DNA from: Lentzea atacamensis
Lineage (GTDB): Bacteria > Actinomycetota > Actinomycetes > Mycobacteriales > Pseudonocardiaceae
Assembly (NCBI RefSeq): GCF_003269295.1
Contig: NZ_QLTT01000002.1
Location: forward strand, 1,116,001-1,180,000
DNA: 64,000 nucleotides
Direction: 5' to 3'
Shown: one piece after another, positions 56,505 to 60,613 of the stretch
How positions within the stretch are numbered: position 1 is the first letter of the stretch
Layout: each line of letters opens with the position of its first letter
The notes under the pieces: generated by a model
What the model was told of the DNA's origin: nothing
Databases searched by the model: none
Seen by the model: the letters and a program-made list of their open reading frames with translations, nothing else
Program-made: the position numbers and the translations under genes

Positions 56505-56645
56505 GAAACCTCCGATGTCTGGGTTTCAATCAGTGGTAGCGCTCTCCCGGCTGTCAACCATCTCGCGTTGACACTTGGCGGCGGACGCACATAGCGTTCG
56601 CGCCGAGAACTGAAGACCGGCCGCGGTGCCCGTGAGGCACCAGAA

Positions 56646-56730
56646 CCCGAGTGGGAGAGACCTCGACGAGCGAGTCGGGGCGCCGAAGGGGCAAGCTCCC
56701 GCACACTCTCAGGCAGCAAGACCGCTCGGG
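56646..56730 (+). ncRNA. Glycine riboswitch (single aptamer)
   Basis: The leader has the conserved glycine-aptamer order: P1 arm CCCGAG (56646-56651), GGGAGAG, GGCGCCGAAGGGGCAA, CTCTCAGGCAGCAAGACCG and the closing P1 arm CTCGGG (56725-56730). Only one aptamer is seen. The last part, GCTCGG (56724-56729), can instead pair with CCGAGC at 56772-56777, which may be the switching element before the gcvH ribosome-binding site. It precedes gcvH and sdaA, both glycine/serine genes. Confidence 0.9.
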
Positions 56731-56798
56731 GTAGGCAACTCTGCACGGCGGAGGGGGCGCAAGTTTCCTGACCGAGCCGTGAAGCCAGAGGAGTCGCC

Positions 56799-58575: not shown

Positions 58576-58929
58576 TCAGCGCGCGTCGTACGCGCGCTGC
58601 GCCTCCAGCACCTCGGGCATCCGCTCCTCCAGGAGATGGATCAACGAGAGCAGCCGCTCGGCCGTCTCGCGCCCGAGCGGCGTGAGGCTGTAGTCGACGC
58701 GCGGTGGGTTCGTGGGCTGCGCGTCGCGGTGCACGAGCCCGTCGCGCTCCAGCGCGTGCAACGTCTGGGACAGCATCTTCTCGCTGACCCCGTCGACCCG
58801 CCGGCGCAGCTCGTTGAACCGCAGCGGACCGTCCACGAGCGCGCCCATCGTCAGGCTGCCCCACCTGCCGGTGACGTGCTCCAGCGTCGGGCGTGACGGG
58901 CACGCCTTGGCGAACACGTTGAACTCCAC
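58576..58929 (-). CDS. HxlR family winged-helix regulator
   Basis: The 117-residue regulator has the conserved [59 protein letters not shown] of HxlR proteins, with Cys near residue 10, which in redox-sensing relatives is the reactive thiol. The GTG at 58927-58929 is chosen because TATGCT lies exactly 6 nt upstream, indicating a leaderless transcript. The frame is open further upstream into an HNH remnant, but that part is not homologous to HxlR. It converges on sdaA. The target gene is unknown. Confidence 0.9.
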
Positions 58930-59037
58930 GTCGTTAGCATACCTGGTCACAGCGCTAACCGTCAGATGGCGCAGCGTGCTGGTTAGTGCATGGTCGGCTG
59001 CCGATGTCGGATTCGGCGCATCGGCTGGGGTTGACTG

Positions 59038-59418
59038 GTAGCTGCCGAGGATCTCGTGCGCGAAAGCGACGAGATCGCGGACGCGTTGGCCGGACGGGTG
59101 GTTGCGAACCCGCATCTCCAGGTTCTCGGGCCGGTTGTCGTCGCGGATGCCGTTCTTGTGGTGCACGGTTTCGCGGGGGCTGAGCAGGCGGCCGAGCACC
59201 GCCTCCATTACGAGGCGATGCTCGCCCACTCAGCGTCCTTTGCCCACGTATCGAAAGCGGTAGCCATCTCGTCGCATGTGGCCTGTGCTGACGGGGCGAC
59301 CTCTACGAGGGCGGTTCTGCCGGTGCCTCTCGTGGTGGGTCCTGCACCATCCCCGTGCGCCGCCGAGAGTAAGTGCGGCGGACGGTGTTGAACTTCGCCA
59401 TCGGCTCTGCCCCCTCAA
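59038..59418 (-). pseudogene. HNH endonuclease remnant interrupted by an in-frame stop
   Basis: Minus-strand translation gives GHMRRDGYRFRYVGKGR, then TGA, then [16 protein letters not shown] and [41 protein letters not shown]. The whole matches phage-like HNH proteins, in which a Trp lies at the stop position (TGG to TGA is the simplest change). The HNH His-His-Asn core is intact. Beyond HEI the frame continues open into the HxlR gene with no stop. The N-terminus is degenerate. Confidence 0.6.
59303..59401 (-). pseudogene. Truncated reading frame with TROVE/Ro60-like first residues
   Basis: The ATG at 59399-59401 follows GAGGGGG with 8 nt spacing and begins MAKFNTVRRTYS, then stops after 32 codons. 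Actinobacterial TROVE (Ro60) proteins commonly start M-[AS]-[KR]-F-N. Similarity ends within about 6-12 residues at the junction with the HNH remnant, so this could be the stub of a Ro60 gene removed by recombination. The match is short and the call is tentative. Its position just downstream of the Y-RNA-like array supports it. Confidence 0.35.
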
Positions 59419-59454
59419 AGCAAAAGAAAGGGGAGCTCACGAACGACACGCGTG

Positions 59455-59581
59455 CCCGAGATCAGGGTCGCGGAAGGTACATGCTGCTCTGCCAGACTGA
59501 GCTGCAGCCGCAGTGGCTGGTGGGATTCGAACCCGCGACCCGCCCATTAGAAGTGGAAGTAACCCTCTGCTTCGCACCGGA
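59455..59581 (-). ncRNA. Y-RNA-like unit A with permuted tRNA-like module
   Basis: Read on the minus strand, this is the third and last unit of the array. The outer clamp TCCG/CGGG and the inner helix GCAGAGGGT (59562-59570) with ACCTTCCGC (59470-59478) enclose an asymmetric internal loop (GGTGCGAA / GACCCTGATCT). Between the helix strands lies a tRNA-like module in permuted order: an anticodon-arm-like CTTCTAA loop, a T arm with TTCGAAT, an acceptor-like hairpin CAGCC-ACTGC-GGCTG, then a D arm GCTC-AGTCTGGCA-GAGC. This order with a closed acceptor is that of bacterial YrlA RNAs. Confidence 0.6.
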
Positions 59582-59600
59582 CACGGTGAAGTTGTGCGCT

Positions 59601-59670
59601 CCCGAGATCAAGTTCGCCAACGGTGCATTTGCGTTTTGAAGACGAAGTAACCGTTGGCTTCGCATCGGGG
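59601..59670 (-). ncRNA. Y-RNA-like unit B, minimal, without tRNA-like module
   Basis: This middle unit is 70 nt. The clamp CCCCG/CGGG and a perfect 9-bp inner helix, GCCAACGGT (59650-59658) with ACCGTTGGC (59616-59624), enclose the loop strands GATGCGAA and GAACTTGATCT. The 3' strand ACTTGATC resembles the conserved ACUUGACU of vertebrate Y RNAs. TTACTTC follows the 5' helix strand as in the other units. The apical loop is a simple A-rich sequence. Confidence 0.6.
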
Positions 59671-59737
59671 TGCGATTGCTGTGCAACCACATCGCGCCAG
59701 CGATTTATCACCTCTGGTCGATGTGGAGCTGTGGACG

Positions 59738-59854
59738 CCCGAGATCAAGTCGCGGAAGGTGGCTGCTCACCGGAGTGGGCGAAGACCGGCCGAAGCCGGT
59801 CTCAGGAATCGAACCCGAGTGATCACCAGAAGTAATCCTCCGCTGCGCACCGGG
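59738..59854 (-). ncRNA. Y-RNA-like unit C with tRNA-like module closed by UUCG
   Basis: This is the first unit of the array on the minus strand, starting 38 nt after the dedA stop. The clamp CCCG/CGGG and the inner helix GCGGAGG with CCTTCCGC enclose the loop strands GTGCGCA and GACTTGATCT. The insert has a T arm TCGGG-TTCGATT-CCTGA followed by the acceptor-like GACCGGC-TTCG-GCCGGTC, a 7-bp stem with the stable UUCG tetraloop, then a weak D-arm-like segment ending GAGC. The sequence differs from unit A while the architecture is the same. Confidence 0.6.
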
Positions 59855-59891
59855 CGCACATCCTTACAGCCACACGGCCCCAGCGATTTTT

Positions 59892-60542
59892 CTAAGGTGC
59901 CGCCTTCACGAACCGGCGCAGCAGGTAGAACAATCCGACCGTCAGCAGCAATCCTGCCGCGCAGATCATCACGATCTCCTCAACCGTCTCCGCCTGCGAC
60001 CCGGCGAACACGTAGGCGGCACAAATCGGCACGGTTCCGGTGAGGGTGAACAACATGAAAGTCCGGAACGACACCCGTGACACCCCGGCGGACACGGACA
60101 CGGTCTCGGCCATCATCGGAATGCCGCGTGCCACGCCGAAGAACCAGGGGCCGAACTGACGGCCCCAGCGGCGCATTTCGGTCAGCTCGTCAATGGTCAC
60201 GACCTTGCGCACCAACCACGGGCGCGCAAACCTGCCGAGGGCGTACCCTGCGGCAGAGGAACCCAGGGATCCGATGACCGCGAGTGCCAGCCCCAGCGGC
60301 AGGCCGAGTGCCGTCCCCGCCAGCACGATGAGCGGGGTGGACGGCACGGGCAGCAGCACGTCCACGACGAGCAGGGCGAAGATCGCCACCGCCGCCCACA
60401 CCGGGTCGATGCCGCGCACCCACGTCACGACTCCCTCGAAGTCGATGAGGTCGAGTGCCTCGAACACGAGCCAGCTCAACAGCACGAACGCGAGCACGAC
60501 GAACGGTATCCACTTCCACCGAACGCCCGTCTCATAACTCAT
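59892..60542 (-). CDS. DedA/VTT-domain membrane protein
   Basis: The 216-residue inner-membrane protein has five to six hydrophobic segments. The VTT core PVPSTPLIVLAGTALGLPLGLALAVIGSLGSSAAGYALGRFA is present, and the re-entrant ARGIPMMAETVSVSAGVSRVSF. DedA-family proteins move lipid carriers (such as undecaprenyl phosphate) or phospholipids across the membrane. The start is ATG at 60540-60542, or possibly GTG at 60560; neither has a strong ribosome-binding site. The Y-RNA-like array begins immediately after its stop codon, so the array could be transcribed with it. Confidence 0.85.
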   Translation of the reverse strand: MSYETGVRWKWIPFVVLAFVLLSWLVFEALDLIDFEGVVTWVRGIDPVWAAVAIFALLVVDVLLPVPSTPLIVLAGTALGLPLGLALAVIGSLGSSAAGYALGRFARPWLVRKVVTIDELTEMRRWGRQFGPWFFGVARGIPMMAETVSVSAGVSRVSFRTFMLFTLTGTVPICAAYVFAGSQAETVEEIVMICAAGLLLTVGLFYLLRRFVKAAP

Positions 60543-60613
60543 CGGGTGATGGTCGCCCACCTCGATGCGCCGGACAATCCGCCAGTGGCACAGGTTCCGC
60601 GAAGGAGACACAC

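Follow-up and report, generated by a model that had tools for sequence, protein, structure and literature searches.

Bacterial Y RNAs are encoded near Ro60, whose human counterpart is an autoantigen in lupus, in more than 250 species, and Chen et al. are said to have reported in 2014 that at least one Y RNA per species carries a tRNA-like domain. The ends of the vertebrate Y RNAs (hY1–hY5) pair in a bulged helix whose 3′ strand is CUUGA-like, a feature that by description rather than by alignment resembles the array considered here; to our knowledge, the upper parts of the vertebrate RNAs are unrelated to the units of this array and contain no tRNA mimic. The closest bacterial systems are those of Deinococcus radiodurans and Salmonella. 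In Deinococcus, a Y RNA tethers Rsr (Ro60) to PNPase and gates its substrates (PMC4726728, PMC8394870), and deletion of Ro60 lowers Y RNA levels in the organisms studied (PMC4726728). YrlA carries a tRNA-like domain (review PMC8394870), and this part of the molecule is a substrate of tRNA-modifying enzymes (PMC4726728, PMC8394870, PMC7790460, PMC6340977). Relatives of Lentzea atacamensis within its genus resemble the D. radiodurans RYPER system in having Y RNA genes beside a Ro60 gene (PMC4726728, PMC8394870) and the Salmonella rsr-yrlBA-rtcBA operon in having more than one such gene adjoining it (PMC7790460). Unlike the RYPER system, the Lentzea array consists of three unequal RNAs and has lost its Ro60 gene in L. 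atacamensis; unlike the Salmonella operon, the array lies upstream of Ro60, and rtcBA was unnoticed among the genes profile-searched beside it. A literature search, with most subscription papers outside its reach, found none that joins Lentzea with Ro60 or with the term "Y RNA."

The window, by which we mean the whole 64-kb stretch of L. atacamensis DNA that was analysed, contains three minus-strand units that share an end helix and a TACTTC motif. A preliminary description of this array gave the units lengths of 117, 70, and 127 nt; homology to relatives gives 118, 70, and 128 nt, and the strings it cited are present on the minus strand at the place it assigned them. Each unit has a CCGGTGCGAAG-like 5′ strand and a TGATCTCGGG-like 3′ strand, with TTACTTC following the 5′ strand of the inner helix in all three, and TACTT is invariant across all aligned copies of the units. 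Unit A (59737–59854, minus strand), the boundaries of which are set by homology, is composed according to alignment and pair counts of the end helix, an inner helix, a T-arm-like hairpin, an acceptor-like hairpin, and a short third hairpin that is D-arm-like and has a loop of four bases. Unit B (59600–59669, minus strand) aligns as the end helix and inner helix without a tRNA-like part. The end helix of unit C (59454–59581, minus strand), assigned to the YrlA type by alignment and model match, encloses a T-arm, an acceptor stem, and a D-arm in permuted order. Unit C has a permuted tRNA mimic and unit A a stiffened remnant of one, with none in unit B. That one unit lacks a tRNA module had been recognized before; because unit A also carries a tRNA-derived part, unit B is the only one to do so.

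Upstream of the array is a gene for a DedA/VTT-domain membrane protein (59892–60611, minus strand; PF09335, 66.7 bits, cut-off 33.9). Between this gene and unit A lies a leader (59855–59891, minus strand) with a GTGGTTGTA core that is conserved in relatives and altered in L. atacamensis, and a second leader that resembles it precedes unit B (59670–59708, minus strand). Both are possibly promoters. An assignment to a sigma factor was considered and dropped on inspection by eye.

The Rfam YrlA model (RF02553) matches unit C with 39.9 bits (E 7.1e-7), below its gathering score of 69, and leaves units A and B unmatched in the window. The best scores of the same model in six related loci range from 24.9 to 47.3 bits. 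Unit C is like YrlA in that the T-arm, acceptor stem, and D-arm follow in the same order inside an end-closing stem, but the alignment covers 61 of 114 model positions, whereas near relatives match the whole model. Thirteen weak YrlA matches elsewhere in the L. atacamensis genome, at E up to 10, are not taken as Y RNAs because 13 of 14 control genomes also match at that threshold. At the gathering threshold, Rfam identifies in the window only a glycine riboswitch (56642–56734, plus strand; 63.6 bits, gathering score 32), which precedes gcvH and a gene for an L-serine ammonia-lyase.

A sample of 24 Lentzea genomes, including that of L. atacamensis, was searched at the DNA level. The array is present in 21 of them (E ≤ 3.7e-58), with an identity of 75–87% in 19 other genomes and a piecewise alignment in a 20th; the remaining three (G003, G013, and G019) gave chance-level matches only (E 0.03–0.4). 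Units were extracted from all 21 array-bearing genomes, unit B being located by hand from the sequence in three, and entered alignments of 21 (A), 22 (B), and 23 (C) sequences. Both partners have changed in 4 of 34 pairs of unit A (shuffled mean 1.8; count reached by 3 of 500 shuffles), in 4 of 15 of unit B (mean 1.8, 11 of 500), and in 8 of 31 of unit C (mean 2.1, 0 of 500), where the T-arm, acceptor, and D-arm helices hold two such pairs each. Further pair types show no excess in unit A (353 of 500 shuffles reach the count) and a weak one in unit B (55 of 500). When the pairing partners are slid by 1–3 columns, paired cells fall from 98–99% to 29–55%. The preliminary description had noted that the inner helices differ among the units yet remain paired, and this compensatory variation is backed by the covariation in relatives. 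The end helix, common to all three units, has 99–100% of its cells paired across genomes; since it is nearly invariant, its support comes from conservation rather than covariation.

Models built from single units recover the other two in the window: a model from unit B alone matches units C (E 1.1e-9) and A (8.4e-8), and a model from unit C alone matches units A (2.2e-12) and B (2.4e-8), although these E-values are rough. This mutual detection suggests that the three units are paralogous.

The genus also reveals the partner. Twenty of the 24 genomes encode a TROVE domain, and in every one of these the gene follows the array on the same strand of one contig; in G014, 50 nt separate the end of unit C from the Ro60 start codon. 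Both array and TROVE are thus found in 20 genomes, neither in three, and the array by itself in one, L. atacamensis, which keeps only a remnant of the Ro60 start. Among the genomes with neither, G019 matches the DedA gene more distantly (72%). In G010, the main locus has a fourth, C-like unit, and units B and C recur at a second Ro60 locus (L068 4880–7264). Four tRNA genes adjoin this second locus and could be the sign of a mobile island; two unit C model matches there (L068 6770–7048) overlie the tRNA genes and were set aside.

By sequence profile and predicted fold, the partner protein of the relatives is Ro60. It shows TROVE (66.6 bits, cut-off 23) followed by vWA_2 (23.9 bits, below the cut-off of 27), and all five PDB sequences found by profile search at E ≤ 0.01 are TROVE/Ro60. 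A structure model of moderate confidence, built from 12 orthologues (mean pLDDT 70), has Ro60 or TROVE entries as its 13 best Foldseek matches, with E-values of 2.6e-14 to 1.5e-9 and TM scores of 0.39–0.52 to Ro60 chains. The NCBIfam equivalog RNA-bind_Rsr gives 37 bits against a cut-off of 900, and the relatives' Ro60 is therefore divergent. Its translation begins MAKFN in 18 of the 20 Lentzea genomes, the start pattern being unmatched in G016 and G010. Two genomes have an intein-like insert of 388 residues that splits Ro60 after residue 286 (L052 6870–8033, minus strand, and the corresponding position in L059); the insert contains a LAGLIDADG domain (46.9 bits, cut-off 22.5), and the Pfam intein splicing domain narrowly misses its cut-off. 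The Ro60 of Lentzea indica (G011; L069/L090) stops early, at 228 residues, through a frame change that represents either a real pseudogene or a sequencing error.

The linkage extends beyond the genus. The preliminary description proposed looking for the array beside TROVE genes in the family; among 200 Pseudonocardiaceae genomes, TROVE was found in 41, and in 38 of these a unit lies upstream on the same strand, 163–2371 nt from the TROVE match. On closer look at the other three, the loci of G048 and G087 have weak matches and that of G114 has no unit match. The unit A model finds 31 genomes (30 with TROVE), the unit B model 27 (25 with TROVE), and the unit C model 30 at E ≤ 1.2e-13 (29 with TROVE). 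At its full threshold (E 1e-4), the unit C model finds 86 genomes, 39 with TROVE; apart from L. atacamensis, the 46 TROVE-less genomes all match at E 1e-7 or weaker, likely through tRNA genes. A TROVE-less unit B match in G121 (E 0.004) was judged to be chance on reading the sequence. Strong unit matches without TROVE are thus confined to L. atacamensis among the 200 genomes.

With the G121 match removed from the 18 loci picked by the unit B model, 17 non-Lentzea TROVE loci could be sorted by arrangement. Twelve have a short unit, then a tRNA-mimic unit, and then Ro60, a share that may be lower in the family at large because only unit-B-model loci were sorted; four, all from one genus (g26), carry one 94-nt unit each; and one (G138) has three units, one mimic and two short. 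Such RNAs had been described as often single and three in tandem as unusual. Single units (4 of 17) and the scarcity of triplets (1 of 17) agree with this statement, but two units are the most frequent arrangement, and tandem precedents exist in Salmonella, with yrlB and yrlA beside rsr (PMC7790460), and in a mycobacterial prophage with three candidate units. In the prophage record (MW584167.1, Mycobacterium; L197), three tandem unit C model matches lie upstream of a "Ro-like RNA binding protein." The first, the end helix of which fits the model poorly, is overlapped by a tRNA-Thr annotation (MW584167.1 26001–26079, equivalent to L197 2469–2547) with which ARAGORN agrees; this gene is likely a Y RNA mistaken for a tRNA. 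Unit A appears specific to Lentzea in this sample because its model scores 123–140 bits within the genus and 37–75 bits elsewhere, where the matches sit at C-type or single-unit positions.

That the units are bacterial Y RNAs of the Ro60 type is well supported by this comparison with relatives. The earlier view of the locus as a Ro60-ligand array is sustained as to type, by linkage in 20 of 20 TROVE-bearing Lentzea genomes and 38 of 41 in the family, but in its present state the L. atacamensis array cannot function as a Ro60-ligand array, because neither TROVE nor a close Ro60 homologue is found there and a deletion scar marks the locus. Sequence homology to relatives continues past the array and into Ro60 as far as 59373, then picks up again between 58972 and 58928, according to the relative compared. 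The remnant (59373–59401, minus strand) comprises a start codon at 59401, the same place at which the relatives' Ro60 starts, and about 10 codons that read MAKFN before diverging. The scar (58973–59372, minus strand) stands where the remainder of Ro60 and the following gene would be; beyond its first 48 nt, this 0.4-kb segment has no match to the other fetched loci (E 1e-3). The counterpart interval in G014 spans about 2.2 kb, with Ro60 and one further gene that, as read from the DNA, looks like a flavodoxin-type oxidoreductase. The scar contains an HNH fragment (HNH_3, 36.1 bits, cut-off 24.8) that is fused in frame to an HxlR-type regulator in an ORF at 58576–59229 (minus strand), apparently a chimera created by the deletion.

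We consider it probable that the array is the relic of a Ro60 ribonucleoprotein locus from which Ro60 has been deleted and in which the RNAs are starting to erode. Five consensus pairs are broken only in L. atacamensis (three in unit A, one in the end helix of unit B, and one in the T-stem of unit C), compared with one such pair in the 20 relatives combined and 0.06 expected from the flanking branch length, in what is a post hoc test on one genome. Broken pairs common to several genomes also occur, with at most three in any one genome. Private changes at otherwise invariant unit columns number five against 1.05 expected (Poisson P 0.004) and no more than three elsewhere, and the leader before unit A has three private changes against 0–2 in other genomes. 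The spacer and leader before unit B are unexceptional, with two private changes compared with up to three elsewhere. Single-sequence minimum-energy folds of the L. atacamensis units A and C miss the consensus structure and are uninformative on decay. Taken as a whole, the orphan array has not evolved faster (array/flank ratio 1.04 on this branch, compared with 1.46 when the other branches are summed), and its model scores remain close to those of relatives; both results speak against decay. We read this pattern as a fairly recent loss of Ro60 with the array in early erosion.

It is also conceivable, if unlikely, that the array is still functional without Ro60, its RNAs being made and serving another partner, for example PNPase through the tRNA-like part, or acting as decoys for tRNA enzymes. 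The unraised substitution rate would fit such a role, as would the intact TACTTC and the preservation of most of the end helices. Covariance scores also stay high, at 83.0 bits for unit B (64–83 in relatives), 125.8 for unit A (123–140), and 138.6 for unit C, the lower edge of the relatives' range (138.6–159). Against continued function stand the five uniquely broken pairs, the end-helix and T-stem pairs among them, and the changed leader core. Persistence without Ro60 is also rare, since 30 genomes in the family match unit C strongly and all but that of L. atacamensis encode TROVE. A more specific proposal, in which the Y RNAs have outlived Ro60 as three distinct functional types (tRNA-less, stiffened mimic, and full mimic) of a Ro60-free particle, for instance on PNPase or tRNA enzymes, strikes us as doubtful.

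Still less credence attaches to the idea that Ro60 is present but was missed, through an assembly gap or misjoin or because an unrecognized replacement elsewhere in the genome serves the RNAs. The assembly, judged without reads, is in 32 contigs and 99.55% complete, which leaves some room for this explanation. The scar, however, has its own sequence inside a 1.19-Mb contig that runs on through it, and neither a TROVE profile search nor a query with a relative's Ro60 protein gives a match in the L. atacamensis genome at E up to 10, whereas the same searches succeed in 20 relatives. Ro60 has also been lost from the sister species G003 and G013, which a tree built on three flanking genes joins with 100% support. 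Their homology ends in both cases at one shared position just past the DedA gene, and fragments of the C-terminal half of Ro60 persist with stops; because what remains there is the opposite end of Ro60, L. atacamensis lost the gene in a separate event. G003 also has a degenerate unit-C-like sequence on the opposite strand (L104 6537–6665, minus strand; E 2e-5, rough), located between the DedA gene and what is left of Ro60. Finally, the T-arm and D-arm sequence in unit C and the weak YrlA matches in this genome (13) and most controls might suggest degraded or tandem tRNA genes rather than Y RNAs, but this is scarcely credible given that no tRNA gene was found in the 64-kb window, that the tRNA-less unit B has the same end helix, that the units detect one another, and that the genomic linkage is to TROVE.

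If the array is a relic of a Ro60 locus, its ancestor would have had three Y RNAs directly upstream of a Ro60 (Rsr) gene on the same strand. Once transcribed, the ends of each RNA would fold back to form the bulged helix, which Ro60 is expected to hold. By analogy with Deinococcus and Salmonella, the tRNA mimic of unit C could act as a tether by docking PNPase and could be modified like a tRNA; unit B, with only the Ro60-binding stem and loop, might by the same analogy have done no more than gate the Ro60 ring; and unit A may have been an extra, stiffened copy. A deletion would then have taken Ro60 from about codon 10 onward together with the next gene, leaving the HNH-containing scar. With Ro60 gone, the RNAs are predicted to be unstable, and their base pairing would begin to erode, which may be how the broken pairs arose.

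Overall, the Y RNAs of this locus are of a kind already known, and the preliminary description recognized them correctly; the loss of their partner is the most interesting feature and lies outside that description. That a Y RNA without a tRNA part and one with a tRNA mimic recur together before Ro60 suggests that the two divide the work between them. At its curated threshold the Rfam YrlA model overlooks these RNAs, and a likely prophage Y RNA is labelled tRNA-Thr, so that existing annotation under-counts such RNAs. In L. atacamensis, nature has deleted Ro60 and spared the RNAs, and this deletion stands among close relatives that keep both the RNAs and the protein, which makes it testable here whether bacterial Y RNAs do anything without Ro60.
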